In this document: positions 5,080 to 16,876 of the stretch, in pieces
How positions within the stretch are numbered: position 1 is the first letter of the stretch
Layout of the letters: each line of letters begins with the position of its first letter
Source: Flavobacterium lotistagni
Lineage (GTDB): Bacteria > Bacteroidota > Bacteroidia > Flavobacteriales > Flavobacteriaceae
Direction: 5' to 3'
DNA: 64,000 nt
Assembly (NCBI RefSeq): GCF_011392125.1
Contig: NZ_JAAJBU010000001.1
Location: 558,001 to 622,000 of the forward strand
The notes under the pieces: model-generated
Seen by the model: only the letters and a program-made list of their open reading frames with translations
The model's database searches: none
Told to the model about the DNA's origin: nothing
Program-made: the position numbers and the translations under genes

Positions 5080-6084
5080 TTAAGGTACTTCAACCTCGTT
5101 GACGATTTTGTTGATGATATCTACTGAAGTGATATTTTCAGCTTCGGCCTCATAAGTAACCCCAATTCTGTGGCGCAACACATCGTGAACCACCGCACGC
5201 ACGTCTTCAGGAATGACATAACCGCGGCGTTTGATAAAGGCATAACATTTTGCTGCGTTGGCTAAATTGATGCTACCGCGCGGCGAAGCACCGAAACTAA
5301 TCAGGTGTTTGATGTTTTCGAGCTTGTATTTCTCAGGGCTTCGGGTAGCGAAGATGATATCGAGGATGTATTTTTCGATTTTCTCGTCCATGTATACCTC
5401 GCGGACTACTTCTTGGGCGCGCAGGATTTGCTCTACGGAAACCACCGGCTTCACTTGTTCATAAGCTCCCGATAGGTTCTGACGGATGACCATGCGCTCT
5501 TCTTCGAGTTTTGGGTAATCGATGACCGTCTTGAGCATGAAACGATCGACTTGGGCTTCCGGAAGCGGATAAGTTCCTTCTTGTTCAATCGGGTTTTGGG
5601 TAGCCAATACCAAAAACGGCTTGTCTAGTTTGAAAGTGGTATCGCCAATGGTAACTTGTTTTTCCTGCATCGCTTCGAGTAAAGCAGATTGCACTTTGGC
5701 AGGCGCTCGGTTGATCTCGTCGGCTAAAACGAAATTGGCAAAGATTGGCCCTTTTTTGATGGAAAACTCGTTCTGTTTGATATTGTAAATCATCGTCCCG
5801 ATAACATCGGCAGGTAAAAGGTCTGGAGTGAATTGGATCCGGCTGAAAGAACCGTGAACCGCTTTAGACAGAGTGTTAATGGCTAAAGTTTTGGCGAGTC
5901 CCGGAACGCCTTCGAGCAAAATATGACCTTGCCCTAAAAGCCCAATGAGCAATCGTTCTACCATGTGCTTCTGACCCACGATAACTTTATTCATTTCCAT
6001 GGTCAGCAAATCGATAAAAGCACTTTCTCTTTCAATCTTTTCATTGATCGCCCTGATGTCGAGCGTCGATGTAGTTTCTTCCAT
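5080..6084 (-). CDS. moxR: MoxR-family AAA+ ATPase
   Basis: This 334-residue cytoplasmic ATPase has Walker A G59-VPGLA-K65-T66, Walker B ending in D122-E123 (FVLADEINR), a sensor-1 ATQNP motif and a C-terminal AAA lid. These are the diagnostic MoxR features, and the length matches the family. MoxR proteins act as chaperone-like ATPases on VWA-domain partners, and this one heads an operon with DUF58, BatA and BatB. The start is the ATG at 6084; the 130-bp AT-rich upstream region holds TCAATTTG, one mismatch from the -7 consensus TAnnTTTG, so the operon promoter is only tentatively placed there. Confidence 0.95.
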   Translation of the reverse strand: MEETTSTLDIRAINEKIERESAFIDLLTMEMNKVIVGQKHMVERLLIGLLGQGHILLEGVPGLAKTLAINTLSKAVHGSFSRIQFTPDLLPADVIGTMIYNIKQNEFSIKKGPIFANFVLADEINRAPAKVQSALLEAMQEKQVTIGDTTFKLDKPFLVLATQNPIEQEGTYPLPEAQVDRFMLKTVIDYPKLEEERMVIRQNLSGAYEQVKPVVSVEQILRAQEVVREVYMDEKIEKYILDIIFATRSPEKYKLENIKHLISFGASPRGSINLANAAKCYAFIKRRGYVIPEDVRAVVHDVLRHRIGVTYEAEAENITSVDIINKIVNEVEVP

Positions 6085-6296
6085 TTTCGGTTAGTTTTAA
6101 GCCGTGAATTGTTCTGTTAAAATTTTCGGTGCAAATTGAATTTTTTTTTAGACGCTCGATGTTAAAAAATGGTTAAAAGTTATGCGAAGCCCCGAATTTT
6201 AAGGAGGAATTGTGATTGTCTTTTTATATTTTTAAGAAGCCCAAAAGCACGGGCAAACCAATCATATTTGTAAGTTTACCAAATCAAAGAAATCTT

Positions 6297-7169
6297 ATGG
6301 AACACACAACTTTTTCAAAGCTGATTGCCGGAGTGATGACTTGGGGCAGTTGGGGCAAAAACCTCAACACCTCGGATATGGAAAACCTAATACAAGTATG
6401 CCTGGAAAATGGGCTCAGCAGTTTTGACCATGCGGATATTTATGGCGGTTACTCAACCGAAAGCGCCTTTGGAACTGCTTTAAAACAAAGCGGAATCGAC
6501 AGAAAGAAAATCCAACTGATTACAAAATGCGGCATTCAATACCAATGTGAAAATCGCCCGAACCAAATCAAACATTACGATTATTCGAAAGATTACATTA
6601 TTTGGTCTGTGGAAACTTCGCTTAAAAACCTGCAAACTGATTATTTGGATTTGCTGCTCTTGCACCGCCCGAGCCCACTAATGCATCCTGAGGAAATTGC
6701 CGAGGCGATTCATCGATTAAAAACCGAAGGTAAAATCTTGGATTTCGGAGTGTCGAATTTTACTGCTTCTCAAACCGATTTAATCCAAAGTGCTATTAAG
6801 GTAAATTACAATCAAATTCAGTTCTCGGCCACACACTTGCAACCGATGCTCGACGGCAGCCTCGATTATATGCAAACCCAAAACATCCGACCGATGGCTT
6901 GGAATCCGCTGGGTTCCGTATTTAAACGCGATGATTTGCAAGCACAAAGGGTTTTGTCTGTAGTAAACAAACTGGCTGTAAAATATGAAACCGCTCCCGA
7001 TTTGATTTTGCTCTCTTGGATATTAAAACACCCTGCTGGGATTCTTCCGGTTTGTGGCACCGCCAATCCCAAACGAATCAAACAGCTTATCAAAGCCACT
7101 GAAATTGATTTGGAATTACAAGACTGGTTCTCGATTTGGGTGGAAAGCACCGGCAATAAAGTGCCTTAA
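6297..7169 (+). CDS. Aldo/keto reductase
   Basis: A 290-residue NAD(P)H-dependent oxidoreductase of the aldo/keto reductase fold. The catalytic tetrad is readable: D44 and Y49 in FDHADIYGG, K77 in TKCG and H123 in LLLHRPSP. I start at the ATG at 6297 (MEHTTFSKLIAG), which matches the normal beginning of the barrel. A TTG 81 bp upstream, preceded by AAGGAGG at 6201-6207, would add 27 residues that do not resemble the family. It is followed after three bases by the AlbA_2 gene, so the two are probably co-transcribed. The substrate cannot be told from sequence. Confidence 0.92.
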   Translation: MEHTTFSKLIAGVMTWGSWGKNLNTSDMENLIQVCLENGLSSFDHADIYGGYSTESAFGTALKQSGIDRKKIQLITKCGIQYQCENRPNQIKHYDYSKDYIIWSVETSLKNLQTDYLDLLLLHRPSPLMHPEEIAEAIHRLKTEGKILDFGVSNFTASQTDLIQSAIKVNYNQIQFSATHLQPMLDGSLDYMQTQNIRPMAWNPLGSVFKRDDLQAQRVLSVVNKLAVKYETAPDLILLSWILKHPAGILPVCGTANPKRIKQLIKATEIDLELQDWFSIWVESTGNKVP

Positions 7170-7172
7170 GCC

Positions 7173-8312
7173 ATGATCAACAAGCGTCTTTTAATCAAGA
7201 ACCTGCTGGCTCACAACGATGAGTGTAGTTTCTATGATAAAAAGCGCCAACTCAACCTGCATTCGCGTGAAGGCAAGGCGAAATTCCTAAAGCATATCTG
7301 CGCACTGTCGAATTCGAATCCGACCAATAATTCTTACATCGTCGTTGGTGTAGAAGATCATGATAATTTAATTGTAGGCGACGATTTCTTCGACGATAGC
7401 CGCATTCAGAATCTGGTCAATGCTTTTCTGGAAAATCCACCGAAAATACAATATGAGAATGTGCCTTTTCCAAATCTTCCGAAAGGCAAAGTTGTCGGAT
7501 TGGTGACCATCAAACCGAAGAATCGCGTGTCTTTTTTTAAGAAAGGCATCCACACTATTTTGGCCAATACGGTTTTTGTCCGCGTGGGCAGCAACAGCAT
7601 GCCGCTCGAAGGCAAGTTTGAGAAAAACTACCAAAATACCGCAACGGTAATCAGCATTGAGAACAGCTCGCGAAACAGCGTAGGGTATACGCTCGACGGA
7701 GTCATCGACTTCATGAATTTCCGCCACAAAGACATGGACTCGAAATACAAGGTGTTTAAAGAGCTTTTTGTGATTTGTTGGGCCGGGATTTCCAAAACCG
7801 TCCGCGGGCAAGAATATCTATCGCGCGTTGACATTGAACTTATCAACGAACAAGTCAAGCTTTTTTATTCCGCCCAAGACGAAGTCACGATTGTTTATGA
7901 TCAAAACAGTTTCACCATTACCGAATATGTCGCCCTAGGACTCAACGACAAAACGAGTTACTATCCTTTAGAGAAACAAACCATCCGTTTTTTTGACAAC
8001 GGCTACTACAAAATTGACCGCGAGATGCTCTTTGAACCGCCGGAATTCAACAAAAAAATGTTGTATCATATCTATAATGCCAATATCGCGCTTTTGGGGC
8101 AACTGCAAAAAGGATATCGGCTCTCGGCTCGCGAACAGAAAGATTTAGAAAACCTGCCGTCTACTTTTATGATTTGTTACCTCAACGGTTTTGATGAGGC
8201 CAAGCAAAAACTCATCGATGCCAAACTGTTATTGAAACCTTATGCTGGCATTTACCAGTCATTTAAAGAGGCGCTCCGGATTTTGAGAAAGATGAAATAC
8301 GATGTGCAGTAA
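7173..8312 (+). CDS. AlbA_2/Schlafen-type putative nucleic-acid or ATP-binding protein
   Basis: This 379-residue protein begins with a domain resembling the AlbA_2 (Schlafen-AlbA) family: ECSFYDKK, then FLKHICALSNSNPT, then YIVVGVEDHDNLIVG, the usual order of motifs. Residues from about 150 to the end are a helical region I do not recognise. Bacterial AlbA_2 proteins are often annotated as ATP-binding or transcriptional regulators; a biochemical role is rarely known. It starts three bases after the aldo/keto reductase stop. Its own TAA abuts the TAA of the convergent gene, forming the palindrome CAGTAATTACTG. Confidence 0.75.
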   Translation: MINKRLLIKNLLAHNDECSFYDKKRQLNLHSREGKAKFLKHICALSNSNPTNNSYIVVGVEDHDNLIVGDDFFDDSRIQNLVNAFLENPPKIQYENVPFPNLPKGKVVGLVTIKPKNRVSFFKKGIHTILANTVFVRVGSNSMPLEGKFEKNYQNTATVISIENSSRNSVGYTLDGVIDFMNFRHKDMDSKYKVFKELFVICWAGISKTVRGQEYLSRVDIELINEQVKLFYSAQDEVTIVYDQNSFTITEYVALGLNDKTSYYPLEKQTIRFFDNGYYKIDREMLFEPPEFNKKMLYHIYNANIALLGQLQKGYRLSAREQKDLENLPSTFMICYLNGFDEAKQKLIDAKLLLKPYAGIYQSFKEALRILRKMKYDVQ

Positions 8313-8930
8313 TTACTGTTTTTTCAAAATAACACGAATGGTTTTGTAACGTTGCTCGCGGAAATAACCCACGATATAAATGCCATCGGCCAGTTGGTCA
8401 AGCGGAATTTTCCCTTGGTTGTTTTTCAAATTGGCGACGTATTTCCCGCTAATGTCGAATACAAAAACGTGACTAATTTTGGCATCGATGAGCAATTCTC
8501 CGGAACTAGGGTTGATTATATTTTCGGTTGTATTTAGCGTTTGGTCGAACAAAAACAAAGGGCTTGAAAACGGCACCGAAAAAGCGCTCTCCACTTTATC
8601 TTGCAATTGCTCGGGTTGATATGAACCGTAAAAAGCTTTGACAATGAGCCGGTAAAAATCTGGTTGGTTTAAAATCAGAGGCAACTCGAATTCATTGTGC
8701 AAATAGTCGATAGCCGATCCGAAACCCGAAATGAACAGCGCCTCTATAGTAATCGTATTTTGCTCGACCGAATACTGCCAAGTTTGAAAATAGTAAAGCT
8801 CTGCGGCCTGAGTGTCAATACGCACTTTGAGGTTTTTCTCTAATTGGGAAATATTTACCCTTGCGATATGCAGTGCGCTCGCGTTAAAGAAAAACAACAG
8901 GCACAAAAAACAGGAAATCTTTGTTTTCAT
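8313..8930 (-). CDS. Small secreted protein with probable T9SS type A sorting domain
   Basis: I choose the ATG at 8930 (MKTKISCFLCLLFFF), one base after the upstream stop, giving 205 residues; an ATG at 8945 would add five residues and overlap the upstream gene. There is a clear signal peptide. The last 70 residues (SSGELLIDAKISHVFVFDIS, then GKYVANL, then LADGIYIVGYFREQRYKTIR) match the layout of the Por/T9SS type A C-terminal sorting domain, though they lack the usual PNP start. The central 115 residues are unrecognised. The protein is probably exported through T9SS and attached to the surface or released. The partner gene directly upstream suggests a shared function. Confidence 0.72.
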   Translation of the reverse strand: MKTKISCFLCLLFFFNASALHIARVNISQLEKNLKVRIDTQAAELYYFQTWQYSVEQNTITIEALFISGFGSAIDYLHNEFELPLILNQPDFYRLIVKAFYGSYQPEQLQDKVESAFSVPFSSPLFLFDQTLNTTENIINPSSGELLIDAKISHVFVFDISGKYVANLKNNQGKIPLDQLADGIYIVGYFREQRYKTIRVILKKQ

Positions 8931-8931
8931 T

Positions 8932-10074
8932 TTAATCGAATTCATTTAACCCATACAGGATTTCTTTCATTTTCGTGCCGTTGATTTCCACCGGTTTATA
9001 AGCAACCTTAAACTTCTCGATGGCTACATTAATATCGGATTTGAGCTTTTTATACTCTACCGGCAATTTCGATTCGCAAGGAATTTCGTTTTCATAACTG
9101 CTCAGAATGATGCCGAACTTTTCATAGAATTTTCCACCTTGATCAATGAAATTGTTGTATTGCGAGATGAACTGCAACAGCCTGTCAATAGGAAAATCTA
9201 GATTCACCTGCATTTTATACTGCGCCGAACCGGTGGTGGTTTTCATCTTATCTAGATAGTCTTCCATTTTCTGGGTCAAATTTTCCCAGTCGTCGTTGGT
9301 GCGGCAGTTTTCCAGCGAGGCGTTGTAACCTATCGGCTTGGTATAATCTTTAAACAACAACTCGATGTCTTGTTTGATTTTATCATTGTTGTTTTGCAGA
9401 AAAGCAGTCTCGAAGTAAATCGTGTTCAAGTCGTTTTGCATACGAAGCGAAAAATCCAGTATGCATTCCACCTTGGCGAGTTCTTTTTCTTTTTCCTCTT
9501 TAGAAAGCGACGAGGTAAGCATGCCTCCGAAGGTCTGAATGACTGAAGCGACAGGATTGGCCGCCAACAAACTCGTAAGCTCGAACGCGCTTTTCTTTTC
9601 CTTCTTGGTCGAAACCAATTCTTTGAGTTTGCCGTATTCCGGGTATTGGTTCGGGTTGGCTATTTTACTAATCTCGTTGAAAGTACGCACCGAAGCGAAA
9701 TGATGGTCGAGGCTCAAGACTTTTTCATACAGGATTTTGATAATTTGCAAACCCTTGAGGTACCGAACTTTGGCCACATCGTTGCCATTGTCTTTTTGCA
9801 ACTGCCGAATTTGATCTTGAATCAAACCCTTTTGAATCAGCAAATCAACTTTGGCTTGAAGAATGGTAACCGATTTCAGTTCGTCGTCAACAGCCTGTAA
9901 CCTGGCGTGCTCAATTTTGAACAGCCTAACATACTGCTCGTTGATGGAGTCAATAGATGCCGAGAGTTGCGCCAGAATGACATTCGGATTGGTTTCGTTG
10001 TCAGAAAAAGTAGCGAAAACGTTCGTCGCTAGCAACAAAAATAGCGTCGAGTAGAAGATTTGGGTTTTCATCAT
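8932..10074 (-). CDS. Exported, mostly helical protein of unknown function
   Basis: This 380-residue product has a signal peptide (MMKTQIFYSTLFLLLATNVFA) and is otherwise dominated by charged, heptad-like helical sequence (about 30-130, 185-230 and 250-330), suggesting coiled coils. A short Ala/Gly-rich stretch (VASVIQTFGGMLTSSLS, about 190) interrupts the helices. I do not recognise the family. Its stop is one base before the start of the T9SS-type protein gene, so the two form an operon and may form a secreted or periplasmic complex. Confidence 0.7.
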   Translation of the reverse strand: MMKTQIFYSTLFLLLATNVFATFSDNETNPNVILAQLSASIDSINEQYVRLFKIEHARLQAVDDELKSVTILQAKVDLLIQKGLIQDQIRQLQKDNGNDVAKVRYLKGLQIIKILYEKVLSLDHHFASVRTFNEISKIANPNQYPEYGKLKELVSTKKEKKSAFELTSLLAANPVASVIQTFGGMLTSSLSKEEKEKELAKVECILDFSLRMQNDLNTIYFETAFLQNNNDKIKQDIELLFKDYTKPIGYNASLENCRTNDDWENLTQKMEDYLDKMKTTTGSAQYKMQVNLDFPIDRLLQFISQYNNFIDQGGKFYEKFGIILSSYENEIPCESKLPVEYKKLKSDINVAIEKFKVAYKPVEINGTKMKEILYGLNEFD

Positions 10075-10193
10075 CCGTAGGGTTGAGTGGCGTGTACATT
10101 TTTAATAGGTTCATGGCGTGTAAATCGATATGGATAATAAAAAGCGAAAAAAACAACCTGTCTAATGAAAGTGAAATAATAGCGTTTGCAATA

Positions 10194-11318
10194 TTATGGA
10201 TGTGCTGGAATAACTTCTAAATCCAAAGTACTCCAATCGTCGGTTTTGTTTACTAAATCTTGCCACTCACATAGGTTCTCTTGAGTTACCTTTTGCCCAT
10301 TGACACTGACAATTTGATCGCCAAGTTGGTATTTGTTCTGTGATTTTTCTTTAACTGATACCACCAGTTTATTCTCGTATACTTTGGCGTAGTAGGTTAC
10401 TTTTCGGCTCAATTGGCTCTCAATAGGATTTTGATTACGTTTGATGTAAACCTTATTGTGTTGGTAATCAATTAGCCAATCAAAAGCTTTGATGAAATTG
10501 ATGCCGATGTTTTGGGCTTTGATCGATGAGGAAACCGAGAGTCTGGTCAATCCTTTTTCACCGGATATTTCGTAGGGTACAGTTTCGTATAACTGATCTA
10601 TGCTTTTACCAGCATTATTTATAGTCGAATATATCGCACCTTCAAATGTTTTTGAAGGATATTGGGAAAAATCCAGTTGATTCGAAAATGGAAAAATGAT
10701 ACTCCCTGAGTAGCCCGTATCTAGCTTAAACTTATGTTCTTTACCATCGATTTTTAAGAATACAAATATTTGATTTCTATTGCACTCAGACTTAATCAAT
10801 TTGTAAGAGTCAATATCTGATTTGCTTTTAATTTCGCTCGCTCTGATATTACAGATTCTTTGATTTGTAAAATCTAAAAACACGCCAAAGTCATTCTGAA
10901 AAAAAGCATCCAGCCCAACAATGCCTTTAAACAACAAGCCTTTAGAGCAAGCACTTTGGGGCATCTGAGAAAATAAAACCAATTTATTCTCACTCTCAAA
11001 AATCGTTGACTGTAGTTTGACTGTTAATAATTTATTTTGGCTCTTTTTTCGATCAGCTCCAACATGACTGCCAAACCTCGCTATCTTTTTTTTGCTGAAC
11101 TCAGGAATTGCATTCGAGTCATTTACCACAGAGGTTGTAGCACCCGAATCAAAAACAAAGGATTGCTTTTTATTCTCTAATTCGACTTCGAAAACAGGAA
11201 TTCCTTTGGACGAAATGTCAATACACTCTTCCTTTAGAACAATTTTCTCATTCATCACATATTTTACTGCGGTGCATGAAGCCAGCAAAGCAAAAAATAA
11301 AACCAAAACTACTTTCAT
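10194..11318 (-). CDS. Retropepsin-like aspartyl protease lipoprotein with C-terminal PDZ domain
   Basis: The chosen start at 11318 gives a 374-residue protein with a lipoprotein signal ending LLAS-C15. A start further upstream would place 48 unrelated residues before it. Two aspartyl-protease half-sites are visible, D57-SGATTSVV and D200-TGYSGSII, the second in a duplicated half, so a single chain could form a complete pepsin/retropepsin-like site. Residues of about 310-365 form a PDZ domain (QLGDQIVSVNGQKV). It should be anchored on the outer envelope, facing the periplasm or outside. It follows the small Cys-tail secreted protein gene after 56 bp that contain a hairpin. The substrate is unknown; the neighbouring secreted protein is an obvious candidate. 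Confidence 0.85.
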   Translation of the reverse strand: MKVVLVLFFALLASCTAVKYVMNEKIVLKEECIDISSKGIPVFEVELENKKQSFVFDSGATTSVVNDSNAIPEFSKKKIARFGSHVGADRKKSQNKLLTVKLQSTIFESENKLVLFSQMPQSACSKGLLFKGIVGLDAFFQNDFGVFLDFTNQRICNIRASEIKSKSDIDSYKLIKSECNRNQIFVFLKIDGKEHKFKLDTGYSGSIIFPFSNQLDFSQYPSKTFEGAIYSTINNAGKSIDQLYETVPYEISGEKGLTRLSVSSSIKAQNIGINFIKAFDWLIDYQHNKVYIKRNQNPIESQLSRKVTYYAKVYENKLVVSVKEKSQNKYQLGDQIVSVNGQKVTQENLCEWQDLVNKTDDWSTLDLEVIPAHP

Positions 11319-11336
11319 ACGTTGACAAGTTGATGA

Positions 11337-11366
11337 AGCAGCCTGAAAAATAAATCCCAGGCTGCT
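11337..11366 (-). other. Intercistronic hairpin between secreted peptide and protease genes
   Basis: AGCAGCCTG (11337-11345) and CAGGCTGCT (11358-11366) pair perfectly over 9 bp around a 12-nt loop. On the transcript it begins eight bases after the stop of the small secreted protein gene. No T-tract follows the stem, so it is not a canonical terminator. It could protect the upstream mRNA segment from 3' exonucleases or reduce read-through, giving more of the small protein than of the protease. Confidence 0.6.
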
Positions 11367-11374
11367 GTCCTTTT

Positions 11375-11818
11375 TTAAGGCATATCTTGTATTACTGGTC
11401 CTCCACAAGGCACTATTTCGCATATCAAATCGACAACTAATTTGATCAAACACATCCAGCAAAATCTATTCTGATTGTTTAAGGTAGCTCCTTGTAAGGC
11501 TTTTAAGCCTCCTTTGCTACTTAATAGTGCCAAATTAATCATGGATTTTCCGTCATAAGTCTTCAACACGGTTTCCGAATTCGCCCCAGTCGATAAATAA
11601 TTAAAAATATCACTTAAGAACTTTTCCTCTTCTTTCGCTGGAACTGTAGTGCCGATTTGGTTCTTTAACCACTCTTGATAAGACATTCCTTTAGTGTAAG
11701 TTCCTTTAGCGGCTGCCACGGCGACAGTCATAGCTGATTTAGTGTAACTGCCATTTTGTGCGTTGGCAACCAATCCGAATAAAAATGAGGCAATTAATGT
11801 AAAAAATAATTTTTTCAT
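11375..11818 (-). CDS. Small secreted protein with cysteine-rich hydrophobic C-terminal tail
   Basis: This 147-residue protein has a signal peptide (MKKLFFTLIASFLFGLVANAQ). The middle part is Ala/Lys/Ser-rich and soluble-looking. All four cysteines (C120, C123, C133, C138) fall in the last 28 residues, spaced C-x2-C-x9-C-x4-C in a hydrophobic segment ending in CGGPVIQDMP. A KGG motif at 102-104 lies before that tail. I do not recognise the family. The layout, soluble pro-region plus compact Cys tail and an adjacent surface protease, would fit a processed secreted peptide, a protease substrate or an adhesive; this is inference. The surroundings are visibly more AT-rich than the flanking metabolic genes. 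Confidence 0.72.
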   Translation of the reverse strand: MKKLFFTLIASFLFGLVANAQNGSYTKSAMTVAVAAAKGTYTKGMSYQEWLKNQIGTTVPAKEEEKFLSDIFNYLSTGANSETVLKTYDGKSMINLALLSSKGGLKALQGATLNNQNRFCWMCLIKLVVDLICEIVPCGGPVIQDMP

Positions 11819-12043
11819 GGCTAATAAAAATTTTAATGTTAAATAAAAATTGAGTTTTAATAAGATCGCGAATCTTGTAGGGTAAAGCTACTTTGCAAAA
11901 ACCAAAACGCGCGGCAGATTTTCTGTAACTAATGTTAAATTAATCGCGAGCAAGTTGCTATATGCACCCAAAGAATTAATCTGTGGATGCTGTAAAACAT
12001 CTTTGGGCAGATTTTCATATCTTGCCTGCTCTGAAATTCATCT

Positions 12044-12769
12044 ATGAGAACACTAGTCATTGGCGATATTCACGGTGGTTTACGGGCTTTGCACCAAGTG
12101 TTTGAACGTGCCAAAGTAACCCCAGAAGACTTGCTTATTTTTTTGGGAGATTATGTGGATGGTTGGAGCCAGTCGCCGCAAGTATTGGATTTTCTGATTT
12201 CCTTACAACAAACCCACTGTTGTATTTTCATGCGCGGGAACCACGACCAACTGCTCTGTGATTGGCTGCGTGAAAGTAAAGACAATCGGCTGTGGCACCA
12301 ACACGGTGGCGAATCGACGATTATGGCCTACACCAAAGTTACCGCCGCAGACAAACAAAAGCACATTCGATTTCTTGAGTCATTGCAAGACTATTATCTC
12401 GATGATCAGAACCGTTTGTTTGTGCATGCCGGATTCACCAATATGAATGGCGTGGAGTTCGAATATTTTCCGAGAATGTTCTATTGGGAACGAACGCTTT
12501 GGGAAACCGCGATGTCATTCGATAAAAATCTAGACTACGATTCGCCGCGTTATCCTCGAAGGCTAAAAGTTTATGAAGAAATATACATAGGCCATACGCC
12601 GGTAACCCAAATTGGACGAAAAGTGCCTACGCAAATGGCCAACGTTTGGAACATTGACACCGGAGCCGCTTTCAAAGGTAAGCTTAGTATTCTTGATGTT
12701 GAAAGTAAGGAGTTCTGGCAAAGCGACGCACTACCCGACTTATACCCTAATGAAAAAGGTCGAAATTAA
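12044..12769 (+). CDS. Metallophosphoesterase (ser/thr protein phosphatase type)
   Basis: A 241-residue cytoplasmic calcineurin-like phosphoesterase. The metal-binding motifs are in order: GDIHG at 7-11, GDYVDG at 35-40, RGNHD at 64-68, then VHAGF and IGHTP with the downstream histidines. This resembles the PP1/lambda-phosphatase-like bacterial branch (PrpA/ApaH relatives). The substrate could be phosphoproteins or dinucleoside polyphosphates and is not decidable here. It precedes the outer-membrane protein gene by 43 bp, so read-through is possible. TATCTTGC, a variant -7 box, lies at about 12017-12024. Confidence 0.9.
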   Translation: MRTLVIGDIHGGLRALHQVFERAKVTPEDLLIFLGDYVDGWSQSPQVLDFLISLQQTHCCIFMRGNHDQLLCDWLRESKDNRLWHQHGGESTIMAYTKVTAADKQKHIRFLESLQDYYLDDQNRLFVHAGFTNMNGVEFEYFPRMFYWERTLWETAMSFDKNLDYDSPRYPRRLKVYEEIYIGHTPVTQIGRKVPTQMANVWNIDTGAAFKGKLSILDVESKEFWQSDALPDLYPNEKGRN

Positions 12770-12812
12770 ACCGAACTTACTATCTTTGGCCTAAATTTAA
12801 TTCCATATAGCC

Positions 12813-13307
12813 ATGAGAAAAATTATTACGGTATTATTATTAGGTTCATTTTCACTACTGAGCGCACAAGCATACAAAGGCAAAGGCGATATTAAAGGTC
12901 AAGTGGGAGCGAACCTGCAAGACCACGGAACCGGGATTTTCTTTTCCGGTGATTACGGTGTAGGCGAAAATATGTCGTTCGGGTTTACAACCAATTATCT
13001 GTTGAGTACTCGAGAAATTGAAGGGGAAAAAGCAGATTTTGGTGATCGTTTCGATTTGAAAGTTCGATTCAACGCCAATTTGGGCAATGTGTTTCAACTC
13101 GATAAAAAAATGGACATCTATCCAGGTCTTAATTTAGGATTGCGTAATTTCGGCGGGCATTTGGGTTTCCGTTATTTCTTTACTGACGGATTCGGATTGT
13201 TCTCAGAAGCTGGTATCCCGATTGCGAAATACGATTCAGACGTTTACGGATTTGACCATTACAACAATCAGTTTGTGTTCAATATTGGGGCGAGTTTCAA
13301 TTTGTAA
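12813..13307 (+). CDS. Small outer-membrane beta-barrel-like protein
   Basis: This 164-residue protein has a signal peptide ending near SAQA and then alternating hydrophobic/polar strands rich in Gly and aromatic residues (GTGIFFSGDYGVGENMSFGF, and later LNLGLRNFGGHLGFRYFF), ending in FNIGASFNL. This is the look of an eight-stranded barrel of about 15 kDa. It resembles Flavobacteriaceae-restricted proteins annotated only as DUFs; I believe DUF6646 but cannot confirm. It is followed by a strong terminator. Confidence 0.75.
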   Translation: MRKIITVLLLGSFSLLSAQAYKGKGDIKGQVGANLQDHGTGIFFSGDYGVGENMSFGFTTNYLLSTREIEGEKADFGDRFDLKVRFNANLGNVFQLDKKMDIYPGLNLGLRNFGGHLGFRYFFTDGFGLFSEAGIPIAKYDSDVYGFDHYNNQFVFNIGASFNL

Positions 13308-13330
13308 AAACAATTCAATAAAAAGAAAAA

Positions 13331-13356
13331 GCGGCCTGTAATAGGCCGCTTTTTTT
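13331..13356. terminator. Bidirectional rho-independent terminator
   Basis: GCGGCCT (13331-13337) pairs with AGGCCGC (13343-13349) around GTAAT, followed by seven T on the plus strand and preceded by an A-rich run that gives a T-tract on the minus strand. It lies between the convergent outer-membrane protein and aldehyde dehydrogenase genes and can serve both. Confidence 0.9.
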
Positions 13357-13398
13357 ATGGAAAAAATTCAGAATTAAATTCGTGCCATTCGTGTTCGT

Positions 13399-14955
13399 TT
13401 ACAAATCAAACTTGATGCCCTGAGCCAACGGCAAATTAGTAGTGTAATTGATGGTGTTGGTTTGTCTTCTCATATAGATTTTCCAAGCATCAGAACCTGA
13501 TTCACGTCCGCCGCCAGTTTCTTTTTCCCCGCCGAAAGCACCTCCAATTTCAGCTCCGGAAGTTCCTATATTGACATTTGCAATTCCGCAATCTGAACCG
13601 GCAACTGACAAGAACTTCTCGGCCTCACGCAAGTTATTGGTCATGATTGCAGAAGATAAGCCTTGGGCTACCCCGTTTTGCAATTCGATGGCATTTTCCA
13701 CTTCGCCTGAATATTTCAACAAGTACAAGACAGGGGCGAAAGTTTCGTGCTGCACGATTTCAAATGAATTTTGAGCTTCTGCAATGGCCGGTTTGACATA
13801 GCAACCACTTTCGTATCCTTCGCCAGTAAGCACGCCTCCTTCTACCAATATTTTCCCACCTTCGGCTACTACTTTTTCTAATGCTTTATTATACATTTCA
13901 ACTGCGTGTTTGTCAATCAGCGGGCCGACATGGTTGTTCTGGTCTAGCGGATTTCCGATGCGCAATTGTTTGTAAGCACCTACGATGGCGTCTTTCACTT
14001 TATCGTAAATACTCTCGTGGATAATCAATCGGCGTGTAGAGGTACATCTTTGACCGGCTGTTCCGACAGCTCCGAAAACAGCGCCAATCACGGTCATTTT
14101 GATATCGGCATCTGGAGTAACGATAATGGCATTGTTTCCTCCGAGTTCTAATAATGATTTTCCTAAACGGGCAGCCACTGCTTGCGCTACGATTTTACCC
14201 ATTCGGGTAGAACCTGTGGCTGAAACCAACGGAATTCTAGTGTCGGCCGTCATGAGTTCACCGATTTTGTAATCCCCATTGACCAAACATGATATTCCTT
14301 CAGGCAAATTATTCTCTTTTAAAACTTCGGCGATGATGTTTTGACAAGCAATGCCGCAAAGTGGGGTTTTTTCGGATGGTTTCCAGATGCAAACATCGCC
14401 TGCAATCCAAGCCAAGGCCGTATTCCAAGACCAAACGGCTACAGGGAAATTGAATGCTGAAATAATCCCGACTACACCTAACGGATGATATTGCTCGTAC
14501 ATTCTGTGCCCAGGACGTTCTGAATGCATTGTCAGCCCGTGCAATTGGCGCGATAATCCTACGGCAAAATCGCAGATGTCGATCATTTCCTGAACTTCTC
14601 CGTATCCTTCTTGTAGGGATTTACCCATTTCGTAGGAAACCAGTTTGCCCAGCGATTCTTTGTGCTTGCGAAGTTTCTCTCCGAACTGGCGCACAATCTC
14701 GCCGCGTTGTGGTGCGGGCATGAGTCGGAACGTTTTGAAAGCTTCGGTGGCTGCTTGCATGGCTTTTTCGTAATCAGCTGCGGTAGAAATCCTCACCGAG
14801 CCTATCAATTGACCGTCAACCGGTGAATAAGATTCGAGGATTTCGCCAGAAGCAAAGTTGTTTTGTCCGGTAGAAGTGCCTTCGTTCAAGGACTTCACTC
14901 CAAGTTGGGCTAAAGCTTCGGTCATGCCGAATTGTTCTGCTATTGTTGTGGTCAT
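13399..14955 (-). CDS. Aldehyde dehydrogenase, ALDH7 / piperideine-6-carboxylate dehydrogenase type
   Basis: A 518-residue NAD-dependent aldehyde dehydrogenase. The catalytic residues are visible: N169 (AFNF), K192 (WKPSEKT), E270 (LELGG) and nucleophile C304 in GTAGQRCTSTRR. That motif and the ENNLPEG segment are typical of ALDH7 (antiquitin, aminoadipate semialdehyde dehydrogenase, AmaB/Pcd), so lysine degradation is the most likely pathway. The gene downstream of 3-hydroxyanthranilate dioxygenase might suggest a role with aminomuconate semialdehyde, but the family match points away from that. A structured repeat lies in the 223-bp upstream spacer, and a consensus -7 box precedes the gene. 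Confidence 0.93.
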   Translation of the reverse strand: MTTTIAEQFGMTEALAQLGVKSLNEGTSTGQNNFASGEILESYSPVDGQLIGSVRISTAADYEKAMQAATEAFKTFRLMPAPQRGEIVRQFGEKLRKHKESLGKLVSYEMGKSLQEGYGEVQEMIDICDFAVGLSRQLHGLTMHSERPGHRMYEQYHPLGVVGIISAFNFPVAVWSWNTALAWIAGDVCIWKPSEKTPLCGIACQNIIAEVLKENNLPEGISCLVNGDYKIGELMTADTRIPLVSATGSTRMGKIVAQAVAARLGKSLLELGGNNAIIVTPDADIKMTVIGAVFGAVGTAGQRCTSTRRLIIHESIYDKVKDAIVGAYKQLRIGNPLDQNNHVGPLIDKHAVEMYNKALEKVVAEGGKILVEGGVLTGEGYESGCYVKPAIAEAQNSFEIVQHETFAPVLYLLKYSGEVENAIELQNGVAQGLSSAIMTNNLREAEKFLSVAGSDCGIANVNIGTSGAEIGGAFGGEKETGGGRESGSDAWKIYMRRQTNTINYTTNLPLAQGIKFDL

Positions 14956-14990
14956 AATTTATTTTTTTCTAATTACATCGATTTCGGTCG

Positions 14991-14998
14991 CAAAAGTA
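14991..14998 (-). promoter_or_regulatory. Putative -7 box of the aldehyde dehydrogenase gene
   Basis: On the minus strand the sequence reads TACTTTTG, an exact match to the Bacteroidota -7 consensus TAnnTTTG, 36 nt upstream of the ATG. A -33 TTG at the usual spacing is not evident. Its presence suggests the gene has its own promoter rather than depending on read-through from the dioxygenase. Confidence 0.6.
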
Positions 14999-15050
14999 AA
15001 TAATAATTGACTATGATTGATTTTTAGTTAATAATTCGTTGGGCAACGGC

Positions 15051-15140
15051 AGCCCTAGCCCTGATGGCAGCGGCATCCTTTTGCGGTGCGTCAGCTGAGC
15101 GAAAGATATAGCGGACAGCAGGTTCCCGGCTCCTAAAAAA
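15051..15140 (+). ncRNA. Structured intergenic element, Flavo-1-like, copy 1
   Basis: The plus strand folds as an outer stem CCTG (15060-15063)/CAGG (15119-15122), a conserved purine-rich internal loop (ATGGCAGCGGCATC on the 5' side, ATATAGCGGACAG on the 3' side) and an inner stem CTTTTGC (15078-15084)/GCGAAAG (15099-15105) containing one T-G pair. AGC/GCT (57-59 with 129-131) adds a basal stem. A second copy at 38351-38457 keeps the loop but changes the stems with compensation. The T-G pair would be A-C on the other strand, supporting plus orientation, antisense to the flanking genes. I think this is the Rfam candidate Flavo-1 RNA, from memory. Function is unknown. Confidence 0.6.
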
Positions 15141-15178
15141 GCAAAGATTGCCACAGATTAAATCCTGTTAAAGTGCGT

Positions 15179-15709
15179 TTATTTGATATACTTCGGATCG
15201 GTTGCCATGACGGTGCCACATTGCTCGCAAGTTCGAAGTTGTTCCGAGTTGTAAAAATGTTCGTAGTGAGGCAGGAAATCCTGCTCAATATCGTGTAATT
15301 CAAAATAAACCTCGTGGAGTTTGTGGTTGCAATTTTCGCAAAACCACAGCAGCCCGTCTGTAAAGCCTTTACCTGCTCGTTTGCGTTCGATGACCAAGCC
15401 GATTGAATTTTCTCCGCGCACCGGTGAATGCGGTGTTTTGGCTGGATGCAAGTACATATCGCCTGCGCTGAGTTCCATTTCCTTTCGCTGGCCGTTTTCT
15501 TGAACTATGACTTTGATGGTACCTTCGAGTTGGTAAAAAAGCTCTTCGGTTTCATTGTAATGATAGTCTTTTCTGGCGTTCGGGCCCGCGACTACCATGA
15601 CGATATAATCTTCCGAGTCGGTATAAATGCTTTTGTTGCCCACCGGTGGTTGGAGTAAATGACGGTTTTGATCGATCCAGCGGTTCAGGTTGAAAGGTTT
15701 CTGAGCCAT
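15179..15709 (-). CDS. nbaC: 3-hydroxyanthranilate 3,4-dioxygenase
   Basis: A 176-residue cupin dioxygenase that opens the ring of 3-hydroxyanthranilate in the kynurenine branch of tryptophan degradation, leading to quinolinate or to 2-aminomuconate. Metal ligands H50, E56 and H94 and substrate-contacting R46 and R98 align, shifted by one, with the residues known from the Cupriavidus enzyme. The second, rubredoxin-like metal site is present as C124-x2-C127 and C161-x2-C164. No other kynurenine-pathway gene is in the window. The spacer to the nuclease gene upstream holds a terminator, so it probably has its own promoter. Confidence 0.96.
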   Translation of the reverse strand: MAQKPFNLNRWIDQNRHLLQPPVGNKSIYTDSEDYIVMVVAGPNARKDYHYNETEELFYQLEGTIKVIVQENGQRKEMELSAGDMYLHPAKTPHSPVRGENSIGLVIERKRAGKGFTDGLLWFCENCNHKLHEVYFELHDIEQDFLPHYEHFYNSEQLRTCEQCGTVMATDPKYIK

Positions 15710-15727
15710 GACTAAATTGTTTTTGAT

Positions 15728-15755
15728 AAAAAAGGATAGTGCCCGACTATCCTTT
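15728..15755 (-). terminator. Rho-independent terminator of the EEP nuclease gene
   Basis: On the minus strand AAAGGATAGT and ACTATCCTTT pair over 10 bp around CGGGC, followed by six T. It lies 9 bp past the stop of the nuclease/phosphatase gene and just before the dioxygenase gene. Confidence 0.88.
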
Positions 15756-15763
15756 GTATAAAT

Positions 15764-16876
15764 TTATTTTGCTTCCTTAATTAGGTATATGTACACCGGA
15801 AAGTGGTCGCTGAAACCAATTTCGTTGGCGCCATGCCGCAGCGGATAGCCTTTGTATTGGCCCACTTTGGTAATCATGTAGGGTTTATTGTATATGCCGG
15901 CTTTCCAATAACGGAATGAAGAATAATCTGGCTTGATAAGGGTTTCAGAAACCATAATTTGATCAAAGATATCACCTGCATCACGATAGAACAAAGTGCA
16001 ATGCCCGTCTTTGGCCATTTGTTCGAACGGATTATAAACCCCGAATTCTTTAACTTGCTCTTTTTTAAGTTTGGCTCCGATGCCTTCCTTGACGCTTTTG
16101 TTGTAAGTACCGTCGTTCAAATCACCCATGGCAATAATTTTGGCATTCGGGTTGACTTTATAGATGGAATCCATGACTTTTCGGGCTAAGCGTCCGGCTG
16201 CTTCGCGGAAAGGACTACTTTTTTTCTCACCGCCCGAACGTGATGGCCAGTGATTGACCATGATGTTGACTTCTTCACCATCCAGAAAACCTGTTACCAA
16301 CAGAATATCTCGCGTGTAAACTCTATCGCCGGTTTTGACCTCGATTTTGTCTTTGTCAAGTTTGTCTTCGTCGGTTTCTTTGTCTTTTTCTTTTTCTTCT
16401 GTTTTATAAATCAGCAACGGAATATTGACCGAACTAGTGGGTTTAAAGTGTTTCTTCTGATACAATAACGCCACATCGATACCTCGTTTGTCCGGCGAAT
16501 CATAGTGTACGATGCCGTAATCGTTTACCGCCAGTTTGGGCTGCTTGACTAAATCTTCTAAAACGCCACGGTTTTCGATTTCGCAGCCGCCAATAATTAC
16601 TGGTGAATTTGTGGTGTTTTCTCCGGTTCCGATTTCAGAAAGCACGCGAGCCAAATTCTCGAGTTTTTGGTGGTACTTCTTCGAGGTCCAGTTTTGGGCT
16701 CCATTGGGCAACCATTCTTCGTCGTTGTTGGCTTGGTTAATCGTGTCAAAAAGGTTTTCGAAATTATAGAACGCTACGGTGTTAATGACGTATTTCTTTG
16801 CTTTCTTTTCCTGAGCTTGGACTCCGCCGAAGGTTAAACTCAGCACAAATAGGGCAATTAAGTTGCTCACTCTCAT
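15764..16876 (-). CDS. Secreted endonuclease/exonuclease/phosphatase-fold (EEP) protein
   Basis: A 370-residue exported hydrolase of the DNase I-like EEP superfamily. After the signal peptide (cleavage near VQA) come FYNFENLFDT, the GGCEIENRGVLEDL metal-binding segment (catalytic Glu in EIENR), VNHWPSRSGG with the active-site His, IAMGDLNDGTYN (the GDLND motif) and finally FSDHFPVYI with the terminal SDH motif. A charged Lys/Glu/Asp insert lies near residues 175-195. Substrates of such exported enzymes include extracellular DNA and phosphoesters. It is divergent from a TonB-dependent receptor operon with promoter boxes only 20 bp apart, which suggests joint regulation in nucleic-acid or phosphate acquisition. 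Confidence 0.92.
   Translation of the reverse strand: MRVSNLIALFVLSLTFGGVQAQEKKAKKYVINTVAFYNFENLFDTINQANNDEEWLPNGAQNWTSKKYHQKLENLARVLSEIGTGENTTNSPVIIGGCEIENRGVLEDLVKQPKLAVNDYGIVHYDSPDKRGIDVALLYQKKHFKPTSSVNIPLLIYKTEEKEKDKETDEDKLDKDKIEVKTGDRVYTRDILLVTGFLDGEEVNIMVNHWPSRSGGEKKSSPFREAAGRLARKVMDSIYKVNPNAKIIAMGDLNDGTYNKSVKEGIGAKLKKEQVKEFGVYNPFEQMAKDGHCTLFYRDAGDIFDQIMVSETLIKPDYSSFRYWKAGIYNKPYMITKVGQYKGYPLRHGANEIGFSDHFPVYIYLIKEAK

Follow-up and report, generated by a model that had tools for sequence, protein, structure and literature searches.

The window analysed here, a 64,000-nt stretch of Flavobacterium lotistagni DNA, raises the question of why a gene for a small exported protein with a cysteine-bearing tail lies next to a gene for an aspartic-protease lipoprotein. 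A preliminary description of the locus had proposed that the protease matures the small protein, degrades it or provides self-protection against it. We refer to relatives of the 147-aa small protein as SMALL, to relatives of the aspartic-protease lipoprotein as RETRO, to TraB/PrgY/GumN-like lipoproteins as TRAB, and to exported proteins of ~150 and ~380 aa as S150 and H380, respectively. The locus has the following features.

11375 to 11818, reverse strand: SMALL, exported precursor-like protein of 147 aa (profile family A3, 34 rows)
11756 to 11818, reverse strand: Sec-type signal peptide of SMALL, residues 1 to 21, ending in ANAQ, with probable cleavage after AQ
11378 to 11467, reverse strand: C-terminal tail of SMALL, residues 118 to 147, bearing all four cysteines
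11337 to 11366, reverse strand: hairpin between the SMALL and RETRO genes, 9-bp perfect stem AGCAGCCTG/CAGGCTGCT (fold z, -4.5)
10194 to 11318, reverse strand: RETRO, 374-aa lipoprotein, two-lobed retropepsin-like aspartic protease with a PDZ-like C terminus
11142 to 11150, reverse strand: half-site 1, FDSGA, D57-S-G59 (D and G invariant in 22/22)
10713 to 10721, reverse strand: half-site 2, LDTGY, D200-T-G202 (D and G invariant in 22/22)
10209 to 10391, reverse strand: PDZ-like C-terminal region of RETRO (weak Pfam matches plus alignment conservation)
8932 to 10074, reverse strand: H380, the next gene of the locus, for a conserved and mostly helical exported protein
8313 to 8945, reverse strand: 210-aa exported protein with a type IX secretion C-terminal signal, last same-strand gene
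12044 to 12769, forward strand: flanking calcineurin-like phosphoesterase gene
7173 to 8312, forward strand: flanking SLFN/AlbA-DUF5929 gene

The cysteines of the window's SMALL are residues 120, 123, 133, and 138 (C-x2-C-x9-C-x4-C), with no further cysteine in the protein, as the preliminary description of an exported 147-residue protein had stated. The accompanying claim that the protein matches no known family also held for family models and solved structures: the window protein gave no Pfam match, no NCBIfam match near the cut-off, and no match to TIGR04032 (SdpC toxin family) at an E value of 1, while SMALL gave no match in a Foldseek search (best E value, 3), in a profile search of the PDB, or with any of the bacteriocin models scanned. 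Membership in Fulvocin C-like or halocin C8-like groups was rejected, since the proteins scanned had no NCBIfam or Pfam match.

The best-conserved part of SMALL is the signal peptide. Among the matches listed, numerous exported proteins of the genus with no other relation to SMALL have similar signal peptides, and many of the listed genus-wide SMALL profile matches span little beyond the signal. SMALL proteins recurrently begin with a Sec signal, continue with a helical prodomain, and end in a hydrophobic tail that is often amphipathic. In the 51 SMALL sequences of at least 120 aa, cysteines accounted for 106 of the 2,295 residues in the last 45 positions versus 13 of the 4,911 prodomain residues, and mean hydropathy was 0.74 in the last 26 residues versus -0.39 in the prodomain. 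Amphipathicity exceeded the shuffle mean in 45 of 49 tails (mean z, 1.5) and was individually significant in only 22 of the 49. AF2 modeling from 34 SMALL sequences (mean pLDDT, 77; pTM, 0.65) predicted confident prodomain helices at residues ~25 to 100, a low-confidence linker, and a separate tail helix at residues 121 to 135. In the 14 members checked, the final 26 residues carry a net charge between -2 and +1, and most of the short SMALL forms paired with RETRO have a basic residue just before or inside the start of the tail. The expected conservation of cysteine spacing failed, as the last 60 residues of SMALL contain between 0 and 4 cysteines; a conserved four-cysteine motif was therefore rejected as a family trait. 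Across 20 RETRO loci, sequences were on average 24% identical pairwise in the prodomain, 27% in the tail, 36% in RETRO, and 64% in H380. The locus has the layout of a bacteriocin-type precursor, with an exported precursor, a hydrophobic or amphipathic C-terminal peptide, and an adjoining dedicated partner gene.

The listed open reading frame of RETRO extends from 10194 to 11462 with a TTG start. We adopted the ATG at 11318 as the probable start because it yields a lipoprotein signal, with the lipobox LLASC and Cys15. The protein matched Pfam RVP above the gathering score (E value, 2e-6; 28.4 bits; gathering score, 20.7), and profile searches of the PDB related lobe 1 to the FIV and HIV-2 proteases and lobe 2 to retroviral-like aspartic protease 1, with modest E values. 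Both lobes thus match retropepsins (clan AA) by profile, but RETRO differs from usual members in combining two lobes in one lipoprotein chain with a PDZ-like region. The lipobox cysteine is invariant in 22 aligned RETRO sequences, as are the D and G residues of both half-sites; a pattern scan for D-[TS]-G found both half-sites in 24 of 25 distinct RETRO partners and one in the remaining 347-aa protein. Matches to PDZ_6 (E value, 0.009), PDZ (0.026), and PDZ_2 (0.055) were weak and all below the gathering scores, which is why the region is termed PDZ-like; it is kept in the alignment of the 22 relatives. Of the preliminary description of a PDZ-containing aspartyl-protease lipoprotein, the RVP match, the two half-sites, and the lipobox therefore stood, whereas the PDZ assignment stayed below threshold. 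The distribution of RETRO is patchy (11 of 296 genomes, own included). Mobile carriage was rejected as far as plasmids are concerned, since tblastn at an E value of 1e-5 gave no match in 72,556 plasmid records. A C-terminal proline of SMALL was considered as a PDZ ligand and rejected: it is present in 22 of 29 RETRO-paired and 2 of 21 TRAB-paired SMALL, yet phylogeny can explain the association, since the tree offers just 1 (starred branches) to 4 independent pairs.

Conservation of the pair was analysed in two sets of loci. Since a scan of genome contigs using SMALL alone confirmed nothing, H380 was used for the named locus set, for which 80 of 107 loci were kept; these were picked regardless of SMALL, and their genomes overlap the same-genus set, in which 40 regions were annotated with a SMALL model built without the signal peptide. 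Members used to train the SMALL, RETRO, and TRAB models are included in the counts, and the whole-genome searches score few candidates per genome (9, 4, and 7), which makes the resulting counts lower bounds. The counts leave out a locus with four internal stops (L005), one unrelated by its open reading frames (L006), short, mostly signal-peptide matches, two open reading frames of L068 at E values of 0.04 to 0.09, a SMALL truncated by a contig end with its partner unseen (L063), and a contig-end fragment in L084.

In both sets together, the next non-SMALL gene after 52 distinct SMALL genes was RETRO in 29 cases, TRAB in 21, S150 in 1, and another gene in 1. Both exceptions share their locus with a protease type, TRAB (L054) or RETRO (L168), and none of the 52 SMALL genes lies in a protease-free locus. 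The pairing of SMALL with a protease is far from chance. The proposal of a conserved pair was thus confirmed, with a protease-type lipoprotein after 50 of the 52 SMALL genes, whereas the expectation that the partner is always an aspartyl protease was not, as it is TraB-like in 21. The 80 H380-chosen loci contain 42 SMALL genes, whose next non-SMALL gene is RETRO (26), TRAB (15), or S150 (1); conversely, SMALL is directly upstream of 22 of 26 RETRO and 15 of 19 TRAB genes, and the remainder adjoin exported proteins of divergent sequence, partners in tandem, split frames, or, for one TRAB fragment, an unrelated gene. The usual gene order is one or two SMALL genes, RETRO or TRAB, often S150, and then H380, with exceptions (e.g., L139, L148, L153, L168, and L177).

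Searches of whole genomes gave a similar picture. SMALL had matches in 6 of 150 genomes, own included; L003 carries the same SMALL-RETRO pair, and in L004 and L007 a SMALL relative is followed by a different lipoprotein (TraB_PrgY_gumN by Pfam in L007). All 11 RETRO matches in 296 genomes have a small protein with a signal-like start directly upstream; 10 of these match the SMALL model, of which they are also training members, and that of L013 does not. In 398 same-genus genomes, the SMALL profile matched in at least 248 genomes, with at least 35 places at an E value of 1e-19 or better. The RETRO profile found at least 26 places at an E value below 1e-70, 19 of which have SMALL upstream in the fetched stretch; the others comprise divergent exported small proteins (G179 and G322), an apparent relic (G397), a tandem second copy (G430), solitary genes (G499 and the second copy of G425), and a SMALL-less place (G479). 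None of six weaker aspartic proteases found with loci had SMALL. The TRAB search gave at least 12 places at an E value of 1e-80 or better, 11 with SMALL and 1 alone (G363). RETRO occurs without SMALL in L086, L269, and L271, three separate places of the protease tree. The L269 protein, sister to the protease of the window, comes from a genome with a different SMALL/RETRO locus, and the L086 protein adjoins an apparent relic, by eye something like a precursor tail. In addition, one RETRO clade adjoins precursors with unrelated linkers and tails.

Pfam TraB_PrgY_gumN was matched above the gathering score (26.8 bits) by one of three TRAB proteins scanned (L007, 31.0 bits), with 18.4 bits for L055 and no match for L004; a profile search of the PDB gave nothing relevant for TRAB. 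All 11 aligned TRAB sequences share six invariant residues (H55, E82, R212, N213, G233, and H236), which we take to be the TIKI/TraB motif residues. On a quick tree of SMALL prodomains, four partner changes are needed, one of which is forced by starred branches. By sequence comparison, two unrelated enzyme types occupy one place beside one precursor family. Eighteen loci with weaker TRAB matches have no SMALL by the model; in L258, L259, and L280 (region of L267) another exported Cys-tailed protein is upstream of TRAB, as is a similar protein of unclear start in L256, so TRAB pairs with at least two precursor families. The second family consists of Cys-tailed precursors of 157 to 165 aa with the motif [FY]V[KN]M.LP early in the mature part, whose genes are directly upstream of TraB-like lipoproteins, some of these in tandem. 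Its members are located as follows.

L259, 971 to 1447: second Cys-tailed precursor
L258, 2210 to 2704: second Cys-tailed precursor
L123, 2159 to 2632: second Cys-tailed precursor
L256, 947 to 1444: second Cys-tailed precursor, start unclear

The SMALL and RETRO genes of the window have the same direction, are 56 nt apart with the hairpin in the gap, and likely form one operon, judging from their arrangement. The hairpin has a folding energy of -20.6 kcal/mol (z, -4.5). Gaps of 30 to 160 nt, taken from 25 RETRO and 21 TRAB pairs with the partner start set by the lipobox rule, contained perfect stems of at least 9 bp in 18 of 21 RETRO and 11 of 18 TRAB cases (29 of 39), for 0.22 and 0.28 expected from shuffles, and none were present in 20 control gaps between the partner and the next gene. 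Since no T-run follows the window hairpin on the coding strand, we read it as a 3'-end stabilizer or partial terminator, which may favor the precursor over the protease. A hairpin favoring the precursor over its partner is a common design of bacteriocin operons.

H380 directly follows RETRO in the window, where S150 is absent, and is 54 to 79% identical to 22 aligned relatives. It gave no Pfam match above the cut-off, and its model (pLDDT, 71.7) gave no Foldseek match in the PDB at an E value below 0.16; the idea, taken from a hydrophobic stretch, that H380 might be a ClyA-type pore former is unsupported. H380 is found in Flavobacterium, Myroides, Chryseobacterium, Lacinutrix, Dokdonia, and others (L099 to L178). 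The 210-aa protein scored 25 bits with NCBIfam TIGR04183 (cut-off, 23), and proteins similar to it by eye are present in L049 and L066. H380 was present in 10 of 150 genomes, own included. Of 60 genomes searched, 35 have the DUF5929 flank, 30 of them with loci; in 14 of 29 other genomes, the phosphoesterase flank is ~20 to 1,440 nt downstream of DUF5929 with no H380 motif between, and among the remaining DUF5929 relatives H380 follows in two and 13 could not be assigned within 1.5 kb. The SMALL-RETRO-H380 locus is accessory in Flavobacteriaceae.

What occupies the place upstream of H380 elsewhere was classed in 65 of the 80 H380 loci, 15 having too little upstream sequence. These comprise SMALL plus RETRO (18), SMALL plus TRAB (14), all three (1), a divergent small protein with RETRO or TRAB (3), SdpABC-like genes (2), Cys/hydrophobic-tail precursors (3), and others (24). 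The 24 others hold lipoproteins and mixed exported genes that are not classable as toxins and by themselves do not prove a toxin slot. The SdpABC-like and other precursor loci are located as follows.

L113, 4952 to 7032: SdpABC-like antimicrobial peptide operon, Flavobacteriaceae, same strand, upstream of S150-H380
L172, 3642 to 6697: SdpABC-like antimicrobial peptide operon, Flavobacteriaceae, same strand, upstream of S150-H380
L068, 3112 to 4176: Cys/Gly/Ala-rich hydrophobic-tail precursor, directly followed by a 3-4-TM protein
L069, 3808 to 4681: Cys/Gly/Ala-rich hydrophobic-tail precursor, directly followed by a 3-4-TM protein
L072, 5619 to 6499: Cys/Gly/Ala-rich hydrophobic-tail precursor, directly followed by a 3-4-TM protein

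In L113 and L172, which belong to two other species, SdpA scored, respectively, 94.9 and 74.0 bits (NCBIfam cut-off, 53.1) and SdpB 212.6 and 223.6 bits (cut-off, 178.4); the SdpC-like proteins score below the cut-off, and one or two extra genes separate SdpABC from S150. Exported proteins with similar signals and Gly/Ala- or Cys-rich tails are followed 2 to 20 nt on by 2-6-TM proteins in L068, L069, L071, L072, L074, and L086, and such exported proteins lack a multi-TM follower in L070, L075, and the case of the 226-aa protein of L069. The precursor and TM-protein pairs of L068, L069, and L072 matched no model; they resemble halocin-type bacteriocin/immunity pairs. A repeated triple of a Gly-rich-tailed exported protein, a ~200-aa exported protein, and a ~160-aa exported protein was also seen upstream of H380 (L117, 6420 to 8252; L155, 6606 to 8416). 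Adjoining L056, L053, L061, L160, and L175 are ~565-aa TPR-AraC-like proteins, subtilisin-like lipoproteins, and short GG-leader peptides, judged by eye and with not every locus having all three.

We put the chance at about even that the locus encodes a bacteriocin-like Sec-exported peptide and a dedicated surface protease most likely protecting the producer, a reading drawn from sequence comparisons. The 147-aa protein would be a Sec-exported precursor in which a helical prodomain precedes the tail, a bacteriocin-like peptide that is short, hydrophobic, and amphipathic and that has a Cys loop in most relatives. RETRO would be a surface-anchored two-lobed aspartic protease dedicated to this peptide, which it would cut or capture before the producer's own membrane, with self-protection as the most likely result; a TIKI/TraB-like lipoprotein would replace it in many relatives, and the intergenic hairpin would let the precursor be made in excess of the protease. 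Four steps of this reading are inferred: the tail comes free, the freed peptide kills, the protease acts on it, and the producer is thereby protected. The presence of RETRO or TRAB after 50 of 52 SMALL genes and the invariance of both half-sites support this explanation, and its bacteriocin part is further supported by the layout of SMALL, the cysteines and hydrophobicity of the tail, the hairpins after the precursor gene, and the place upstream of H380 shared with SdpABC. SdpABC (TIGR04032/04033/04034) likewise pairs an exported precursor, hydrophobic in its C-terminal region, with dedicated partners in the membrane, and lies at this position ahead of S150-H380 in L113 and L172; SMALL differs in having no TIGR04032 match, no recognised adjoining SdpA or SdpB, and surface proteases as partners. 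The bacteriocin reading is weakened by the tail charge, unlike that of many cationic bacteriocins, by significant amphipathicity in only 22 of 49 tails, and by the lack of a match of SMALL to any bacteriocin model scanned. The unclassed exported genes in 24 of 65 H380 loci, the missing multi-TM follower in L070 and L075, and the weak PDZ match also weaken the explanation as a whole. A precedent for the proposed protease role is PrgY, a TraB-family membrane peptidase thought to degrade the donor's own secreted pheromone outside the cell (PMC7117660). The likeness lies in the TraB-like partner of 21 of 52 SMALL genes, and the differences in the window's partner, an unrelated aspartic protease, and in the PrgY peptide, a short pheromone of Enterococcus plasmids.

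The same co-location and conservation would be expected if RETRO matured the peptide by cutting the prodomain from the tail after export, with immunity residing elsewhere, e.g., in H380 or in target specificity, a possibility that we consider rather unlikely although it agrees with the strict co-occurrence of SMALL and protease in the same order, the low-confidence linker between prodomain and tail, and the basic residue near the tail start in most RETRO-paired short forms. SdpA and SdpB are required for SDP maturation, and they occupy the same place in other loci. A further precedent comes from Abi/CAAX bacteriocin loci with a resident protease gene (SilX and SagE), whose role in immunity or processing is debated, and in the streptococcal SilX locus deletion of the protease pointed to peptide processing, not immunity (PMC9298176); these are CAAX-type enzymes, another class, in streptococci. 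SilX thus also weakens the case for protection, as does the small number of stand-alone proteases, just three, which may have other substrates. A maturation role is in turn weakened by SMALL-less RETRO in three places of the tree, one after an apparent precursor deletion, by one protease clade adjoining precursors of unrelated linkers and tails, and by two unrelated enzyme types alternating next to one precursor family. The first two of these observations, together with the absence of SMALL from protease-free loci, favor protection, which we regard as about twice as probable as maturation. The preliminary suggestion of maturation, degradation or self-protection was partly supported, with a peptide-toxin/self-protection locus as the best reading.

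Two other explanations are compatible with parts of the data. SMALL could be a peptide pheromone precursor whose signal the protease ends or matures, as PrgY does for cCF10, and regulatory genes do occur beside loci: simple patterns found histidine kinase/NarL-like genes in 12 and TPR-AraC regulators in 13 of 80 loci, more were seen by eye (e.g., L054, L062, and L082), and GG-leader peptides are near some loci. The same patterns, which undercount (L110 was missed), placed a regulator near just 7 of 35 loci with SMALL and H380, and none was recognised among the open reading frames of window positions 6000 to 16000; together with the hydrophobic tails and the place shared with SdpABC, this makes signaling improbable. 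We consider it still less probable that SMALL belongs to the ordinary envelope or surface-structural proteins and that the protease serves quality control. The same-strand neighbours are indeed exported, one with a type IX secretion signal, but fast divergence (prodomain and tail identities of 24% and 27% against 64% for H380 in RETRO loci), the patchy distribution of the protease, the alternative partners, RETRO or TRAB, and the closely spaced flanks without H380 in 14 of 29 relatives speak against it.

Among the papers listed by searches of the open-access literature, none described the SMALL-protease pair or its locus, and none dealt with a two-lobed lipoprotein of the RETRO type as a bacteriocin partner. 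To our knowledge, few bacteriocin systems of Bacteroidota have been described, and rapidly diverging exported precursors next to a conserved core gene would provide a handle for finding more of them. An HIV-protease-like enzyme as the partner of a peptide toxin would be unusual, and H380 would become a candidate for the Gram-negative handling of Sec-exported peptide toxins. Extending the protective reading to the family, we propose tentatively, and with some doubt, that Flavobacteriaceae may guard themselves by surface lipoprotein proteases of two unrelated, alternating types, with an H380/S150 module that is also present beside SdpABC and other precursors. If true, immunity would come from proteolysis at the cell surface, and many unrelated peptide toxins would share one handling module.
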